Positions 10,245 to 26,019 of a stretch of 26,019 bases of DNA are shown one piece after another. The translations under genes were made by a program, and so were the position numbers. A model generated the notes under the pieces. It saw only the letters and a list, made by a program, of their open reading frames with translations. It was not told the DNA's origin and did no database searches. The first letter of the stretch is position 1, and the number at the start of each line of letters is the position of its first letter. Location of the stretch: IMG/VR virus record IMGVR_UViG_3300030104_005080, positions 24,753 to 50,771 of that record; one strand, written 5' to 3'. This stretch comes from a virus.

Positions 10245-10817
10245 ATGGCTTTTGAAAGTGATTTGATAAGAAGATATAGTGGTGCCTTTTCAAAAGAAGA
10301 TTGTACTCAAATATTAGAGGGTCTTAAATTTTTTGAAGATAATCATCTACTATTCTATAATAAAACGAAATTAAATAGAATGGATCATGAGGATGTTAAT
10401 GTTACTCATAACTATAATTTTTCAGCATCAAGCAGACTCGCTGGTGAAGTATTACCAAAATTTAAACCTTGTGTAGATGAGTATCTGGAGGCATTTGGTG
10501 TATTGGGTTTAAGACAATTTTTGTTGCATGATGTCAAATTAAAGAAAATACCTGCTGGAGGTGGATTTCATGCTTGGCATTTTGAAAATGGTAGTGTAGA
10601 GACATCATTAAGACAGTTTGTAGTTCAATTATATTTGAATGATGATTTTGATGGAGGGGAGACAGAATTCTTATATCAACAACGTAGAGAGAATGCAGTA
10701 ACAGGAGATGTTCTTATCTTTCCAGCTGGATTTACCCATACACACAGAGGTAATCCACCTTTAGGAGGTGTAAAATACATTGTCACTTCATGGGGAATGA
10801 TTCAGCAAGAACCATGA
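10245..10817 (+). CDS. 2OG-Fe(II) oxygenase, prolyl-4-hydroxylase-like
   Basis: 190 aa. This superfamily hydroxylates its substrate using Fe(II), O2 and 2-oxoglutarate. Iron ligands are visible as HAWHFE (His112, Glu114) and the distal His in PAGFTHTHRGNPP (His165 most likely). Lys177 in GGVKYIVTSW is placed to bind 2-oxoglutarate. YLNDDFDGGETEFLY is the typical core strand. It lies 22 nt after purN and overlaps the next oxygenase by 4 nt. Substrate unknown; nearby fibre proteins are possible targets but this is only an inference. Similar genes are common in cyanophages. Confidence 0.85.
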   Translation: MAFESDLIRRYSGAFSKEDCTQILEGLKFFEDNHLLFYNKTKLNRMDHEDVNVTHNYNFSASSRLAGEVLPKFKPCVDEYLEAFGVLGLRQFLLHDVKLKKIPAGGGFHAWHFENGSVETSLRQFVVQLYLNDDFDGGETEFLYQQRRENAVTGDVLIFPAGFTHTHRGNPPLGGVKYIVTSWGMIQQEP

Positions 10818-11437
10818 TAGAAGATTTAGTTGCAGACGCTTTTGTTAGTCCATTCCCACATCTTATCTTTCGTAATTTTTACAATGAAGATGAGTTAAAA
10901 TTAATATGGGAGGAACTAGATTTTTATACAAAGAAAGATAAACTATTTGAAGCAAAGGATTTTGGTGGTGTAGTTGATAAAACTAATTCAAAAGCAATTT
11001 GGTTGGATAAAGTTTATAAAAAACCATATAGAAGTCTCTCTAATATATTAACAGTTAATAGAAAACTTTTTGATGCTGGAATACTTAAAGCATTTTCTCG
11101 AATACATGATTGTTGTTCGATTGCCGAAACAACTAATTTTGATGTAACTAAAGTTAGATATTATCATAATGGAGATTATTATGAACCACATACAGATAAA
11201 ACAGTACAATTTTTAGGTTTTTCTTATTTCTATCGTGAACCTAAAAAGTTTGAGGGAGGTGAGTTAGTCTTCCCTAAATATAATTACGCTTTTCCGTGTG
11301 ATAATAATTCGTTAATCATGATGCCCGGCTGGGTAGAGCATGGTGTTAGTGAAGTTAAGATAGATGACTTCGATTACTATGGAGGTTATGGTAGATATGC
11401 CATTACGAGTTTTTTTGGCAATAAGGAAAAGGAATAA
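10814..11437 (+). CDS. Second 2OG-Fe(II) oxygenase
   Basis: 207 aa from the ATG at 10814, chosen because it makes a 4-nt ATGA overlap with the previous stop. An ATG at 10790 in frame would add 8 residues and overlap more. The iron triad is complete: His126 and Asp128 in YYEPHTDKT, His176 in PGWVEHGVSEV. Arg194 in GRYAITSFF is the 2-oxoglutarate anchor and FEGGELVFP is the core strand. It differs from the upstream oxygenase in length and spacing, so the two are distant relatives, not a recent duplicate. A late promoter box overlaps its end. Confidence 0.85.
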   Translation: MIEDLVADAFVSPFPHLIFRNFYNEDELKLIWEELDFYTKKDKLFEAKDFGGVVDKTNSKAIWLDKVYKKPYRSLSNILTVNRKLFDAGILKAFSRIHDCCSIAETTNFDVTKVRYYHNGDYYEPHTDKTVQFLGFSYFYREPKKFEGGELVFPKYNYAFPCDNNSLIMMPGWVEHGVSEVKIDDFDYYGGYGRYAITSFFGNKEKE

Positions 11438-14353: not shown

Positions 14354-14381
14354 TTGACAATTATACATACCTTTGTATGAT
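14354..14381 (+). promoter_or_regulatory. Sigma70-type promoter upstream of a short RNA
   Basis: Perfect TTGACA at 14354-14359, a 16-bp spacer and TATGAT at 14376-14381. Expected start near 14388. It lies 9 nt after the fibre stop and about 55 nt before a strong terminator, so it produces a short RNA or an attenuated helicase leader. Confidence 0.75.
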
Positions 14382-14387
14382 TGCTAG

Positions 14388-14457
14388 AGAGACTCTATAA
14401 TTTTTTAAAGGAACCAGTGTCGAAAGTGTCACAGCCCCCTGCACAGGGGGTTTTTTT
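14388..14457 (+). ncRNA. Candidate ~70-nt small RNA or attenuator leader
   Basis: Bounded by a consensus promoter and an intrinsic terminator with no ATG-initiated ORF between. It contains two AGTGTC copies (around 14416 and 14425) before the terminator hairpin. In-frame read-through from the TTG at 14381 exists, but that TTG is part of the -10 region and is an unlikely start. Function unknown. Confidence 0.45.
14435..14457 (+). terminator. Intrinsic terminator
   Basis: Stem CCCCCT (14435-14440) pairs with AGGGGG (14445-14450) around the loop GCAC, followed by seven T. It separates the late fibre block from the helicase operon. Confidence 0.9.
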
Positions 14458-14458
14458 A

Positions 14459-14467
14459 TGCTATGAT
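14459..14467 (+). promoter_or_regulatory. Extended -10 promoter TGCTATGAT
   Basis: Starts one base after the terminator T-run. The TGn extension can replace a -35 box. Transcription would start near 14474, 15 nt before the helicase ATG. The same design follows the terminator at 19112. Confidence 0.55.
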
Positions 14468-14488
14468 ATATTCATTAATGAGAGATTT

Positions 14489-15667
14489 ATGCCCCTAAGA
14501 CCTCACCAAGAAAAAGCATTGCAAGCAATGACCAAGCACTCCAAAGGTCAGATCATTGTTCCTACAGGTGGTGGTAAAACTCTTGTTGCCATCAATGATG
14601 CCTTATCACAATTTGATACTGGTTGGAAAACTATTGTTGTGGTCGCTCCACGCATCCTATTAGCAGAGCAACTATCGTCTGAGTTTTTGGAAGTGATAAG
14701 AGAGAAATACAAATATGTTCAGGTGATGCATGTTCACAGTGGTGATACAAAGCATTTCAGCACAACCAAACCAGTAGAAATTGCTGAGTGGTGTAAGTTC
14801 AGTAAAGGTAATAAGATCATCTTTACAACATATCATTCACTCCATAGAATACAAGAGAGTTATGCTCATGTTGATACAATATACTTTGATGAAGCACATA
14901 ACTCAGTTCAGAAAAACTTTATCCCATCAGTAGAGTATTTCTCAATGTATGCTGAGAGATCATACTTCTTTACTGCAACACCAAAGCACAGTCTAACACC
15001 ATTCAAAGTGGGTATGAATGAACCTGATATATTTGGTCAGGTTATTTGTAATGTACCAGCACCTAAGTTAGTAGAGCAAGGTTATATTCTACCACCAAAG
15101 GTGAAAGTATATAAGAGTGAGATCAGACAGAAAGATGAGATTACATTTGATGTGGAATGTAATCAGATCATGGATAATATTGATGACCATAACACTAAGA
15201 AGATTCTTGTATGTGCTAAGGCTACAAAGCAGATTACAGGTCTTGTTTCATACTCTAAGTTCATAGATGAGTTAGCATGGAGAGGTTATTCTTGCATGTA
15301 TATCACATCTAAGACTGGTGCAGTTATAGATGGTAAGAATGTAAGTAGAGATGAGTTCTTTAATGTATTGAGTGCATGGGGCAAGGATGAAGATAAGAAG
15401 TTTGTTGTGTTGCACCACAGCATATTATCTGAGGGCATCAACGTAAAAGGACTTGAGGCAGTCTTATTCTTAAGATCTATGGATTATATCGGTATTAGTC
15501 AAACAATCGGTAGAGTGATCCGTACAGGGTCGAAAGAGAAGACCTATGGTCTAGTATGTGTACCAGTTTACTCTAAAGTTGGTATCAGTACAGCAAGAAA
15601 GGTACAAGCAGTTGTTGACACTGTATTTGAGCAAGGTCAACCAGCAATTAGCGTTGTAAGATCATGA
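14489..15667 (+). CDS. DEAH-box superfamily 2 helicase
   Basis: 392 aa from the ATG at 14489. An in-frame TTG at 14381 would have to read through the terminator and promoter, so it is rejected. Motifs: I PTGGGKT (Lys30), II DEAH (134-137), III TATP (162-165), V SEGINV (314-319), VI QTIGRVIR (338-345). This is an ATP-driven DNA/RNA translocase. It resembles the UvsW/RecG-like and RAD25-like helicases of T4-like phages used in recombination and fork repair, but it is shorter than T4 UvsW (about 500 aa) and lacks an evident N-terminal extra domain, so the symbol uvsW is not assigned. The next gene starts 4 nt before its stop. Confidence 0.88.
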   Translation: MPLRPHQEKALQAMTKHSKGQIIVPTGGGKTLVAINDALSQFDTGWKTIVVVAPRILLAEQLSSEFLEVIREKYKYVQVMHVHSGDTKHFSTTKPVEIAEWCKFSKGNKIIFTTYHSLHRIQESYAHVDTIYFDEAHNSVQKNFIPSVEYFSMYAERSYFFTATPKHSLTPFKVGMNEPDIFGQVICNVPAPKLVEQGYILPPKVKVYKSEIRQKDEITFDVECNQIMDNIDDHNTKKILVCAKATKQITGLVSYSKFIDELAWRGYSCMYITSKTGAVIDGKNVSRDEFFNVLSAWGKDEDKKFVVLHHSILSEGINVKGLEAVLFLRSMDYIGISQTIGRVIRTGSKEKTYGLVCVPVYSKVGISTARKVQAVVDTVFEQGQPAISVVRS

Positions 15668-16176
15668 TTTTAATACAAGATAATTTTTTTGATAATCCAG
15701 AGGATTTAAGAGATTTGGCCTTGTCAACCAGATTTTTTAGTGCTGAAGAAAAAAATTATGACGTTGGATGGAGAGGGTATAGAACTAATGAGATGAGGGA
15801 TTTGGATAATAATGTGTTAGAAGTATCTTGTCAAAAAATTAGAGATGAATTAATAAAATTTTTTGATCTAAAAATTGATAAAGATGAGGGTAATTTCTAT
15901 TTTCATATCGCATTATCACATACAAAAAACACTTTAGAAGATTTTGACACAAATAAATTTCACATAGATGACTCTAAATTTGCAGGTATCGTGTACTTAA
16001 GTCCTAATCCACCACCGAAAACTGGAACTACAATCATCATTAATAATGAAAATAAAGATATAGAAAATAAATTTAATAGATTAGTTGCATATCCCGCATC
16101 TTTAATACATGCTCCAAGTGATTTATTTGGCGACACTATGGAGACAGGTCGATTAACAATCTCTTTTTTTGTATGA
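15664..16176 (+). CDS. 2OG-Fe(II)-fold protein, DUF6445-like
   Basis: 170 aa. The C-terminal half has the dioxygenase pattern: His100 and Asp102 in KFHIDDSKFAGIVYL, His149 in SLIHAPSD, Arg163 in TGRLTISFF. YLSPNPPPKTGT matches the 'YLnp...GGT' strand. The N-terminus (ILIQDNFFDNPEDLRDLAL) matches the usual opening of DUF6445-type proteins, which in bacteria are found beside tryptophan halogenases. Here it overlaps the helicase stop by 4 nt and the halogenase start by 4 nt. A joint role with the halogenase is inferred from this coupling. Substrate unknown. Confidence 0.72.
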   Translation: MILIQDNFFDNPEDLRDLALSTRFFSAEEKNYDVGWRGYRTNEMRDLDNNVLEVSCQKIRDELIKFFDLKIDKDEGNFYFHIALSHTKNTLEDFDTNKFHIDDSKFAGIVYLSPNPPPKTGTTIIINNENKDIENKFNRLVAYPASLIHAPSDLFGDTMETGRLTISFFV

Positions 16177-17264
16177 AATATAAAATAGCTATTGTTGGTG
16201 CTGGTAATGCAGGTTGTATAACAGCCTTGCATTATCATAGGTATCTTAGAGGAGATCATGAGATAAGTATATACCATAGTCCAGATACACATCCAATAGA
16301 GAGAGTTGGTCAGGGAACTATCAGTCCAGTTGTGGAGCTTGTAGGCACAGTATTGGGTATAGACTGGTATAATAATCCGATAGATGCCACGCTTAAAACT
16401 GGTGTTTTGTATGAAGGATGGGGTAAGAAAAATGATAAGTTTCATCATTCATTTAAGATGGATGAAATGTCGATGCATTTTGTTCCACAAAAGTTATCAA
16501 ACATAGTATTAAATTCAGGTTATTTTAATGTTGTTGAAAAGGTTATAACTGAACCTGAAAGAGAAGTGGATGCTGATTTCATATTTGATTGTAGAGGTAG
16601 GCATAATAGAGATAAGAAAAACTATGATACTCTTATCAATCCTTTGAATAGTGTTCTCTTATCCAAGAAACAGGGAAGAGATCCCGACCTTACATATACA
16701 AGATGTGTTGCTACACCACATGGGTGGACATTTGTTATTCCAAATGTTGATAGTATATCCTATGGGTATTTGTACAATGATACTATAACATCAACTCAAG
16801 TAGCAAGAGAGGATTTCTTAGAAAGATTTAATCTTGATGAAACTGATGGAACTAATTTACGTTTTGAAAATTATATGGCCAAGAATATGTTTGTTGGTGA
16901 AAGGACAATACTACAAGGAAATATGTTTGGATTCTTAGAACCATTAGAAGCAACCTCATTAGGGATATACCAAACTATCTGTAGAGAGTCGTGGGATGTT
17001 TTATTGAGTGGCAAAACATTTGATGTATGTAATAATAATGTTAGGAATTTCATGAAAAAAGTGGAGACATTTATACTATGGAATTATCAGTATGGATCTA
17101 AGTATGATACTCCATTTTGGGAGTATGCTAAGTCACTTCCATTTAATCCTGATGTAAATTTCAAATACATCTTAAGTAATCCTATTAAACATGATTTGCA
17201 TTATGCTTTATGGGAAGGATGGAATTTCAAACAATTCAAACAATATTATGAGGTATCAACATGA
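16173..17264 (+). CDS. Flavin-dependent (tryptophan-type) halogenase
   Basis: 363 aa. The family uses FADH2, O2 and halide to make hypohalous acid, which travels to a catalytic lysine and halogenates an aromatic substrate. Visible: FAD motif GAGNAG (9-14), DATLKTGVLYEGW with Lys75 at the position of the PrnA catalytic Lys79, WTFVIP (185-190; usual form WxWxIP, second Trp replaced by Phe), and FLEPLEATSLG (254-264) with Glu259 matching the catalytic Glu. The usual 'GEaT' near residue 46 is VGQGT. It is much shorter than PrnA/RebH (over 500 aa). A cyanophage halogenase, VirX1 from Syn10, is known to iodinate diverse substrates and is the natural comparison. ATGA overlaps on both sides. Confidence 0.87.
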   Translation: MKYKIAIVGAGNAGCITALHYHRYLRGDHEISIYHSPDTHPIERVGQGTISPVVELVGTVLGIDWYNNPIDATLKTGVLYEGWGKKNDKFHHSFKMDEMSMHFVPQKLSNIVLNSGYFNVVEKVITEPEREVDADFIFDCRGRHNRDKKNYDTLINPLNSVLLSKKQGRDPDLTYTRCVATPHGWTFVIPNVDSISYGYLYNDTITSTQVAREDFLERFNLDETDGTNLRFENYMAKNMFVGERTILQGNMFGFLEPLEATSLGIYQTICRESWDVLLSGKTFDVCNNNVRNFMKKVETFILWNYQYGSKYDTPFWEYAKSLPFNPDVNFKYILSNPIKHDLHYALWEGWNFKQFKQYYEVST

Positions 17265-17485
17265 CTAAAACACCAGAAGAAAAGAAGGAACTCAAAGCAA
17301 TCGCCAGATTCTATAAGGATGCCACTGAGGGCTTTGCTACTAATGATGGATACTATGGAGTACCGTCAGATGGTAAGAAGATAGCAGTCATTCACGAGGG
17401 TGAGGTGCTTAAATTCTGCCGTAATGAACAGTCTGCCAGAAATTTCGTGGTTCAGCACAGAAAGAAGACAGTTAAGAAAGTGTAA
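17261..17485 (+). CDS. Small basic protein of unknown function
   Basis: 74 aa. It starts in the ATGA that ends the halogenase gene, so it belongs to the same message. It is Lys-rich with a helical N-terminus (TPEEKKELKAIARFYKDA) and a mixed strand region (GKKIAVIHEGEVLKFC). No catalytic motif is seen. Confidence 0.75.
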   Translation: MTKTPEEKKELKAIARFYKDATEGFATNDGYYGVPSDGKKIAVIHEGEVLKFCRNEQSARNFVVQHRKKTVKKV

Positions 17486-17706: not shown

Positions 17707-17943
17707 ATGGAAGATCATAACAGTATTCAAGATGATGAAAGTAGAGAGGTGAAATGGGATAGAGCAAAGACTTTATTTTTAGAGTCTCTCTATAAACCAG
17801 ATCATGAACTCAGAGGATGTGCTCACAATCAAAAATGTTATAATGAATTGATGGAGATTAGAGATTGGGCTATAGAACAAGTCAAGTCTAACATTAAATC
17901 CACACCTTTTATTAATCCTTGGCACAAAGATGAAGGAATTTAA
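17707..17943 (+). CDS. Small acidic helical protein
   Basis: 78 aa, unknown function. Predicted mainly helical (WDRAKTLFLESLYKPDHELR, NELMEIRDWAIEQVKSNI) with two Cys in GCAHNQKC. A late promoter precedes it. Its end overlaps the DUF4385 gene by 14 nt. Confidence 0.7.
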   Translation: MEDHNSIQDDESREVKWDRAKTLFLESLYKPDHELRGCAHNQKCYNELMEIRDWAIEQVKSNIKSTPFINPWHKDEGI

Positions 17944-23559: not shown

Positions 23560-23938
23560 ACCTGAAGTTGATGATTATGTAGTCTGGGAGAGACCAAATG
23601 GAGATCACGAAGAAGGGTGGGTATATTTTAAAGGAGAACCGACTGAGAAGAAAAGAGGATTTCCATATCATCCGCATTATATTACAATAGAGGTATCTGT
23701 AAGACCTAAACCACATTGTAGGTATTCTAAGGGTGATCCACATAAGATGATTCATAGTTTACTATTATGTTATGTTGGGCAATGGAAAGAGTTGAGGTAT
23801 GTAAAGAGCCGTAAGCATGCGAAAGATAGTGTGGAAAGAGATGAGATTGATTATATTGAATATACAAAGATACATAAACCCCCAAAAGAGGAAAGTACTT
23901 ATCACAGTCAACAGTATCGTTATGAGGATGTACAATGA
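23552..23938 (+). CDS. Cyanophage-type protein of unknown function
   Basis: 128 aa, beta-rich start (PEVDDYVVWERPNGDHEEGW) and a conserved-looking core (KPHCRYSKGDPHKMIHSLLL, then CYVGQWKELRYVKSR). His and Cys in the core might bind metal. Similar proteins occur in T4-like cyanophages as far as I recall. It is between two overlapping genes in one operon (8 nt and 4 nt overlaps). Confidence 0.75.
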   Translation: MYEPEVDDYVVWERPNGDHEEGWVYFKGEPTEKKRGFPYHPHYITIEVSVRPKPHCRYSKGDPHKMIHSLLLCYVGQWKELRYVKSRKHAKDSVERDEIDYIEYTKIHKPPKEESTYHSQQYRYEDVQ

Positions 23939-24750
23939 AGGATAGGAAAGTTGCATTAGTCACAGGAGGATTTGATCCATTACATGATGGACATCTTGCA
24001 TTATTTCGTCATGCCAGAGAGTATGGTGATTATTTGTTTGTTGGTGTAAATTCAGATTATTGGCTGGAACGAAAGAAGGGAAAAGCATTTATGGAAAAAG
24101 AAACAAGGTTGAATATTATCAAAGAGTTATCATGTGTAGATAATGCACTGTTCTTTGATGATCGTGATGGTACTGCGATAGATGCAATTCATAAGTGTTT
24201 AAGATGGTATTCTAAAGTTGTATTTGTCAATGGTGGTGATCGTACTGAAAAGAATACACCAGAGTTTGATACATTTAAGGATAATGGTAGAGTGGAATTT
24301 GTATGGGAAGTAGGAGGAGGAGATAAGAAGAATAGTAGTAGTTCAATCTTAGAGAATTGGAAGAGTCCGAAGACAATACGGCCATGGGGATACTATCGTG
24401 AGTTGTATGAAGGGAAAGACTTTAAAGTAAAAGAATTAGTAATTAATCCTCATTCAAGTCTGTCAATGCAACGTCATCAATATCGGAGTGAAACATGGAA
24501 TTTAGTTAGTGGTAATTGTAGTGTAAGAATGATTGATATGAACCGTAGATTATTACATACACAGAGAGTAATCAGTACGTTTGAAATACCAAAATTTACA
24601 TGGCATCAAGGAACAAATATGAGTGATGAACCATCTCATGTAGTAGAGATCTGGAGGGGCGATAGTGGACAGTTATCAGAGACAGATATAGAGAGAATTG
24701 ATATAGATGCAGTAGAGAAACTTATACAATCAGGAATAAGACCAGATTGA
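23935..24750 (+). CDS. Cytidylyltransferase-like domain fused to PMI-type cupin
   Basis: 271 aa. Residues 1-~142 are a nucleotidyltransferase of the HldE-C/TagD type: GGFDPLHDGHL with the HxGH motif (His17, His20), ERKKGKAFMEKETRLNIIKE, NGGDR and SSSSILENW. Residues ~147-255 are a type-II mannose-6-phosphate-isomerase-like cupin: RPWGYYREL, LSMQRHQYRSETWNLVSG with likely metal ligands Gln179, His181 and Glu186, then His224, ending GDSGQLSETDIERID. The pair would activate a sugar phosphate to a nucleotide sugar or related compound. Substrate unknown. The start overlaps the previous stop (ATGA). It is the last gene of the + strand block. Confidence 0.85.
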   Translation: MKDRKVALVTGGFDPLHDGHLALFRHAREYGDYLFVGVNSDYWLERKKGKAFMEKETRLNIIKELSCVDNALFFDDRDGTAIDAIHKCLRWYSKVVFVNGGDRTEKNTPEFDTFKDNGRVEFVWEVGGGDKKNSSSSILENWKSPKTIRPWGYYRELYEGKDFKVKELVINPHSSLSMQRHQYRSETWNLVSGNCSVRMIDMNRRLLHTQRVISTFEIPKFTWHQGTNMSDEPSHVVEIWRGDSGQLSETDIERIDIDAVEKLIQSGIRPD

Positions 24751-25039: not shown

Positions 25040-25306
25040 AAGTTTAAATCTAGGCGAGATTCTTATGGACGATTTCACTCTCGACTATGATATGTCATAC
25101 GACAGCTATGATGCACTAGACGAGGATTATAACTGGGATCTCGACGAGGATCGCAGAGACAATCTCGACTATGTACAACTGTCATATAGACATTACGCAT
25201 AACGTAGATCTCGTCGAGATATGTGCATAGGCATATAGCTCACGTACACTACGAGATATATCATGGTGCCTAGACATAAGTGCACGAGATATGCATACGA
25301 GATACA
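25022..25306. repeat. Cluster of CGAGAT/ATCTCG elements
   Basis: CGAGAT or its complement occurs near 25023, 25055, 25139, 25162, 25207, 25212, 25252, 25286 and 25298, with related CTCGAC/ACGAGG forms between. It includes the perfect palindrome TCTCGTCGAGA (~25207-25217). It spans the acidic gene and the noncoding 25203-25324, which is also full of GCATAT/ATATGC. CATTACGCATAA is repeated at 25190-25201 and 25323-25334. Confidence 0.6.
25065..25202 (+). CDS. 45-aa strongly acidic Asp/Tyr-rich protein
   Basis: ATG 25065 to TAA 25200-25202. A frame extended to TTG 25011 would use the promoter as coding sequence and is rejected. Sequence MDDFTLDYDMSYDSYDALDE then DYNWDLDEDRRDNLDYVQLS: 13 Asp and 2 Glu against 3 Arg, so a net charge near -12. 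Small acidic phage proteins can mimic DNA and block host DNA-binding enzymes; that is only a hypothesis here. Its codons contain several CGAC/CGAG elements of the repeat cluster around it. The perfect promoter suggests strong early expression. Confidence 0.65.
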   Translation: MDDFTLDYDMSYDSYDALDEDYNWDLDEDRRDNLDYVQLSYRHYA

Positions 25307-25324
25307 CATATGCATATATGCACA

Positions 25325-25453
25325 TTACGCATAATCAATATCCCCGCGTATATACGCATCTAGATCGAACTTATCTGTACCCGCAGTCAGGAGCGAGTCA
25401 ACATAGCTCTGCTCATCTTCTAGGAGAGCATCAAGAATCTGTTCGTTTTCCAT
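25325..25453 (-). CDS. 42-aa acidic protein on the minus strand
   Basis: Minus ATG at 25453-25451, stop at 25327-25325. Reads MENEQILDALLEDEQSYVDS, then LLTAGTDKFDLDAYIRGDID and YA. It is acidic, with an amphipathic first helix, and looks protein-like throughout. It converges with the acidic gene at 25065; both proteins end in Tyr-Ala. A plausible minus promoter lies at 25477-25505. No SD is obvious. One of very few minus-strand genes in the window. Confidence 0.5.
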   Translation of the reverse strand: MENEQILDALLEDEQSYVDSLLTAGTDKFDLDAYIRGDIDYA

Positions 25454-25476
25454 AGGGTATAATAAGATACAATGGT

Positions 25477-25505
25477 ATAATATCAAAGAGGGGACGATAT
25501 TGCAA
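25477..25505 (-). promoter_or_regulatory. Possible minus-strand promoter
   Basis: On the minus strand TTGCAA (25505-25500), 17 bp, TATTAT (25482-25477). Two TATAAT hexamers also occur on the + strand at 25458-25463 and 25476-25481, without -35 boxes. The site may be bidirectional. Confidence 0.35.
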
Positions 25506-25640
25506 TCGACCTTGTGCCAGTTCGTCGATTGGCAGGAGTAACAAATATTACATAAGATGACTAATATTATTTTATTGCAGGGGGAGTGGCGAAGGTTGTT
25601 CAGTAGAGCGACCCTGCTCCCGTCTTTGCTTGTTACACAT

Positions 25641-25690
25641 ATTATAAATCATATGACCATGAAATGGGGGCACTAGTAGACACTTTATAA
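25641..25690 (-). promoter_or_regulatory. Degenerate minus-strand copy of the terminator/promoter cassette
   Basis: Read on the minus strand it gives TTTATAAAGTGTCTACTA, then CCCCCATTTCATGG, then TTATAAT. This follows the order at 19366-19415 (TATAAAGTGTCCACTA, hairpin with CCATTTTCCTTGG, TTATAAT). The GGGG arm of the hairpin is lost, but the -10 (25646-25641) remains and points toward the minus-strand gene. Confidence 0.4.
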
Positions 25691-25927
25691 ACTGGCACAC
25701 TTCTCTACGCATTCTCTATAGAGTCGGTTATATTAAATGAGTCGGTCAGGGATGTGCAATTTCGTGGGAACTCTGAGCATGAGATCTTTACAAATTTGTT
25801 CAGTGGAAATTCCATATCAGGGGAACCTGACCGACCCCGCAAGGGTACCGGCCGTGCGGCCAAAATCAGTTCCCAAACTGTCACAAGACTGCTTGATTTT
25901 TGCCCCATTATGTGAGATTATAATAAT

Positions 25928-26019
25928 ATGTTCAATCCTAACACCACTTTTAATCCCGCATTCCCTTATGCGGTTGTCTGCTCTGCAGCACCTCATGAAA
26001 ACTCAGTTTTCAAAACTTT
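25928..26019 (+). CDS. Possible start of a gene running off the window
   Basis: ATG 25928, open for 30 codons to the end: MFNPNTTFNPAFPYAVVCSA then APHENSVFKT. No SD. A different + frame from ATG 25737 is also open to the end, so at most one is real. Too short to identify. Confidence 0.3.
   Translation, partial: MFNPNTTFNPAFPYAVVCSAAPHENSVFKT

Follow-up and report, generated by a model that had tools for sequence, protein, structure and literature searches.

Why does the gene of a flavin-dependent halogenase (FDH) overlap that of a protein of a family without assigned function, DUF6445, in a phage, and do the two products work together? The window, i.e. the whole stretch of DNA analysed (26,019 nt), comprises bases 24753-50771 of the 50,771-base virus record IMGVR_UViG_3300030104_005080. 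Its UvsW protein is closest to those of single-cell marine viruses and of Prochlorococcus phages P-SSM5/P-SSM2, the latter being the nearest named isolates (~65%), and the window is therefore regarded as a T4-like cyanophage relative. Overlaps of 4 nt join UvsW, the DUF6445 gene, the FDH gene and a 74-aa ORF into a four-gene chain (Table 1). The UvsW stop codon overlaps the DUF6445 start through ATGA, and the DUF6445/FDH overlap has the same size. Coordinates, lengths, overlaps and residues given for these two genes in a preliminary description of the DNA were re-checked and are correct.

Table 1. Features of the halogenase locus (positions in the window).
Feature	Position	Strand	Basis or remark
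UvsW-type DNA helicase	14381..15667	+	Pfam ResIII/DEAD; phrog_16
DUF6445 protein, very probably with PHD-type Fe(II)/2-oxoglutarate dioxygenase fold, 170 aa	15664..16176	+	Pfam PF20043; AF2
Compact variant-A flavin-dependent halogenase (FDH) by family, 363 aa	16173..17264	+	Pfam Trp_halogenase; alignment; AF2
Presence/absence and probable recombination tract compared with L004	15661..17171	+	DUF6445 and divergent FDH
74-aa ORF, overlaps FDH stop	17261..17485	+	Judged outside the module

The DUF6445 protein scores 33.3 bits against PF20043 (curated cut-off 24; 20.1 bits in a six-frame search of the record), the match spanning residues 131-170 only, and is by sequence a divergent member of this family. 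It had been described as a putative 2OG enzyme with an intact HxD...H...R set, a reading supported by both the residues and the predicted fold. H100, D102, H149 and R163 are kept in 96, 96, 95 and 96, respectively, of 96 viral and MAG relatives, which were collected with an HMM and by conserved stretches outside the triad. Counting was restricted to viral and MAG sequences; the bacterial set contained three likely wrong-strand ORFs (L162, L176 and L181, judged by residues), which were also left out of the bacterial adjacency rows below. The AF2 model (pLDDT 95.7) has a double-stranded beta-helix fold, and its best structural matches are prolyl hydroxylases. The fold is common to P. putida prolyl-4-hydroxylase (P4H; 4j25; Z 17.0 over 153 residues, rmsd 2.7) and human PHD2 (Z ~16), at just 12-17% identity; a DUF6445 profile gave no match to PDB sequences up to E 1. 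Because of the conserved triad and the prolyl-hydroxylase fold, the protein is very probably an Fe(II)/2OG dioxygenase of the PHD type. In PHROG, DUF6445 is labelled ‘minor coat protein’; this was rejected, as triad and fold point to an oxygenase. The term ‘DUF6445’ was absent from the papers searched, and the family would gain a testable identity, i.e. a PHD-type dioxygenase tied to halogenation in phages and bacteria.

The FDH scores 129 bits against Pfam Trp_halogenase. It was aligned with PrnA, RebH and 9luq, and K75 and E259 align with K79 and E346 of PrnA (hand-counted on the printed alignment). Both residues are invariant in 30 FDHs with 20-70% identity to the window FDH, as are G9, G11 and G14 of the GxGxxG motif, and the earlier placement of Lys75 and Glu259 at the catalytic positions agrees with these results. 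The top structural matches of the AF2 model (pLDDT 91.6) are FDHs (Z 29-38); modelling against VirX1 and PrnA, which the preliminary description had suggested, recovered the FDH fold with Z 29.3 (over 349 residues) and 33, respectively. Judged by fold and catalytic pair, and despite a deviating WxWxIP motif, the protein is by family a compact variant-A FDH. In alignments, the window FDH lacks ~70-100 residues of full-length FDHs after position 95, and the compact clade differs from six long phage FDHs in having no middle insertion and a shorter C-terminus. VirX1 of cyanophage Syn10 (PDB 6qgm) has the same phage variant-A halogenase fold; with 531 aa compared to 363 aa, it contains a middle insertion and a C-terminal part most of which are missing from the window FDH, whose clade is also set apart by Q47 and F187. 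VirX1 is an active phage FDH which prefers iodide (PMC8407142). Compact prnA genes of 1104-1167 nt have been on record in cyanophages since 2010 (PMC3037559), thus the size of the FDH alone is not new. The cyanomyovirus genes (T4-GC 212, e.g. S-ShM2) are of the same compact type with ~40% identity to the window FDH, but in S-ShM2 the FDH overlaps talC instead of a DUF6445 gene.

For determining how often the two genes occur together, viral contigs were searched with a DUF6445 alignment. An FDH HMM was used to score the 80 loci thus obtained, and redundancy was removed at 90%. Genes less than 150 nt apart were termed adjacent and those within 5 kb near. An FDH was adjacent in 12, near in 7 and absent in 34 of the non-redundant viral and MAG DUF6445 rows (n = 53); the corresponding numbers for Pseudomonadota (n = 26) were 8, 3 and 15, and ‘absent’ is an upper bound since many contigs are short. 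In a tree, the 21-row DUF6445 clade of the window contains ten adjacent, six near and five rows without FDH, and supported branches force at least eight changes of the adjacent label, with the bootstrap not fully settled. DUF6445 precedes the FDH in L040-L043, L045-L050 and L069/L070, the order is reversed in L065/L066 and also in bacteria, and adjacent genes lie on opposite strands in L170 and L166. Rarity of adjacent homologues had been named as grounds for giving up the pairing; instead, adjacency recurs in phages and bacteria, up to fusion.

Among isolates, the window DUF6445 had five matches in 50,697 phage records, belonging to three phages by name (S-SRM01, S-SSM6b and S-SSM4). The FDH of S-SRM01 lies ~26 kb from its DUF6445 gene, and in S-SSM4 no FDH is annotated within 6 kb, where many genes are ‘hypothetical’; at the sensitivity of this search, the pair was not seen in the S-SRM01 and S-SSM4 neighbourhoods. 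PF20043 was present in 30 of 398 sampled Pseudomonadota genomes. One bacterial locus (L168) has the Pfam-confirmed order TonB receptor, alpha-galactosidase, DUF6445, FDH, Cupin_8, SapC, TonB receptor. As in the window, the FDH is directly beside the PF20043 protein, here also beside a Cupin_8 protein, but the FDH is of full length, the DUF6445 protein is canonical (~240 bits) and, in place of phage genes, TonB receptors and a glycoside hydrolase are encoded nearby. SapC- and cupin-like ORFs were recognized by eye in L165, L169, L172, L177 and L191, with Pfam confirmation for L168 only. In the literature searched, no paper was found that links a halogenase to SapC or to both cupin and TonB, and none that describes the DUF6445-FDH pairing.

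In two phage loci (L064 and L067), a single in-frame ORF of 681 aa holds both FDH and DUF6445. The two fusions are 89% identical without gaps, with dN 0.06 and dS 0.50 in a simple Nei-Gojobori estimate (DUF6445 part: dN/dS values 0.04/0.47), and are under purifying selection. A second, separate FDH follows directly after the fusion in L064 (5512-7023), and the fusion of L067 is likewise followed by a second FDH. Because adjacency recurs in differing contexts and orders, the genes overlap by 4 nt and the proteins occur fused, we consider it fairly probable that FDH and DUF6445 protein form an exchangeable two-enzyme module for halogenation and hydroxylation of one shared substrate, which would be passed among marine cyanomyoviruses and other phages. 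As suggested by residues and fold, the FDH would form HOX from host-supplied FADH2, O2 and halide; HOX would travel through the tunnel to K75, which together with E259 would halogenate an electron-rich aromatic group. The DUF6445 protein would, judging from triad and fold, hydroxylate the same substrate before or after this step. We know of no natural substrate of a phage halogenase; the recurrent partner, and above all the natural fusion, narrows the search for one, and with a single purified fusion polypeptide halogenation and hydroxylation could be examined on one and the same substrate. Counting against a module, many 2OG genes are found in cyanophages (PMC3037559), which raises the chance adjacency for 2OG genes generally.

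Trp-FDHs are marked by the Trp3 and Trp4 motifs (PMC8269204). Neither motif nor a YYHGxxxYS-like C-terminal stretch was found in the window FDH by inspection of alignments, and free L-Trp is an unlikely substrate since the stretches holding the motifs appear to be missing. For the proposed module, a bulky and possibly protein-bound substrate would tentatively be the likeliest, with tail adhesins and host proteins as candidates, because the FDH is without the ~70-100 residues and the free-Trp C-terminal stretch, and its partner has the fold of protein hydroxylases. Alternatively, the pair could act as auxiliary metabolic genes on a free host metabolite such as an indole or phenol during infection. 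VirX1 accepts varied aromatic substrates (PMC8407142), and modification of host metabolites by phage FDHs has been proposed in a review (PMC10452541). However, no metabolite pathway gene was seen consistently beside the pair, and with L-Trp improbable for the reason given, we regard this possibility as rather unlikely. FDHs acting on peptide-bound Trp are known, e.g. MibH (5uao; Z 32.8 to the window FDH) and SrpI (PMC10858898). Unlike the window FDH, both sit in peptide natural-product clusters. To our knowledge, neither has a DUF6445 partner.

Fibre or adhesin homologues accompany 9 of the 19 DUF6445 rows with an adjacent or near FDH and 2 of the 27 viral rows without (Fisher’s p = 0.0036). 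The association of the pair with fibre modules is only a lead, because the rows share ancestry and these phages are themselves the source of the reference fibres. That phages, and perhaps bacteria with the same gene pair, use a coupled FDH-PHD pair for post-translational halogenation and hydroxylation of a surface or receptor-binding protein, and that the compact phage FDH gave up much of its small-molecule pocket to take a protein substrate, is an extension of the module that we think quite improbable; protein modification of this kind is not known to us from phages.

The pairing is not obligate. Starting from 22 non-redundant FDH loci, DUF6445 was adjacent in three and near in two; in two of the three (L021 and L022) the DUF6445-like protein is divergent, and in L019, which clusters with L021, it scores 22.6 bits, just below the cut-off. 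In L003 and L004, UvsW overlaps the FDH directly and DUF6445 is absent, although both match the window closely (L003 98.6-99.5%; L004 99.7-99.9% in two aligned segments). The tight genetic pairing proposed earlier thus holds in that it recurs widely but is not fixed, being absent from these two loci and from most compact-FDH loci. Of the SNPs that separate the window from L004, 20 fall in the FDH, while the ~5.5 kb upstream hold 6 and the ~5.4 kb downstream 1; since these 20 lie between near-identical flanks, the FDH was probably exchanged in the same stretch as DUF6445, and the tract is a probable recombination tract, which by covering DUF6445 plus the FDH fits the proposed module. The window FDH begins with MKYKIAI, as in L002 and L013, but that of L004 with MKIGIIG, which suggests a gain on the side of the window. 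Across seven paired loci, the identities of DUF6445 and FDH are uncorrelated (rho 0.02); this points to an exchange of partners and speaks against a tightly co-adapted complex. Each enzyme can probably work alone, as most compact FDHs are without DUF6445 and most DUF6445s without a nearby FDH.

This loose coupling would also be expected if both were independent cargo genes which share the variable fibre/UvsW region as a hot-spot and no function. The diverse upstream neighbours of the FDH (MTase-like, NifU-like, PurM, talC, UvsW) fit such an explanation as well as the uncorrelated identities and the two loci devoid of DUF6445 do. It is nevertheless improbable, since two distinct phages have the genes fused in frame and the fusions are under purifying selection, since the gene order is reversed in some loci, and since the two families are also paired in Pseudomonadota, in L168 beside Cupin_8, SapC and TonB receptors.

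Coming back to the shared-substrate module, its first step depends on the chemistry of the compact FDHs. The window FDH has the signatures VGQGT, WTFVIP and FLEPLEATSLG, which contain Q47 for E, F187 for W and A260 for S, and with these three deviations halogenation by compact FDHs would not be assured. Q47 and F187 occur in all FDHs of the compact clade (24/24), whereas six long phage FDHs have E and W (6/6). In WTFVIP, the second W of the WxWxIP motif is replaced by F187. Compared with the tunnel motif Fx.Px.Sx.G, FLEPLEATSLG has F254, P257, S262 and G264, but at the spacing of PrnA (FLEPLESTG), A260 and S262 are found at the S and G positions. WxWxIP has been proposed to prevent monooxygenation (PMC8407142), and its alteration, together with Q for E and a reduced substrate region, would suit compact FDHs that ceased halogenating and are now flavin oxidases or monooxygenases accompanied by DUF6445 as a hydroxylase, to which we give little credence in view of the invariant K75 and E259 and of the absence of WxWxIP or variants of it from a number of FDHs, e.g. 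Bmp5 (PMC8407142).

The preliminary description had counted the small third gene as part of the module, which does not hold. A homologue of the 74-aa ORF is followed by a homologue of the next gene (17707-17943) in L005, L008, L011, L014 and L016, and its place relative to the FDH varies among them; hence, the ORF was rejected as a module member and is taken to form, together with the gene that follows it, a block distinct from the module.

Several further observations were made. Two full-length FDHs with one gene between them are present in L033 (4140-7978) and L034 (3134-6939), the intervening gene of L033 belonging to phrog_7084. P4H- or 2OG_5-like ORFs are located upstream of an FDH in the phage loci L025 (1276-2821) and L029 (4939-5999), the last of them overlapping the listed FDH ORF. 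The window itself contains two more, mutually overlapping 2OG-Fe(II) oxygenase genes at 10245-11437, beside PurN and fibre genes. At 23935-24750, a 271-aa protein is encoded in which, according to Pfam, a cytidylyltransferase-like domain is fused to a cupin of the mannose-6-phosphate isomerase type; a relative with 145-146 aa is present in L008, L011 and L012. The region 25100-26019 contains short ORFs only, has a raised GC content (0.40-0.46) and matched no Rfam family at gathering score; it shares 89 nt with Marine virus AG-345-F15 at 91% identity and 116 nt with AG-345-L05 at ~80%.
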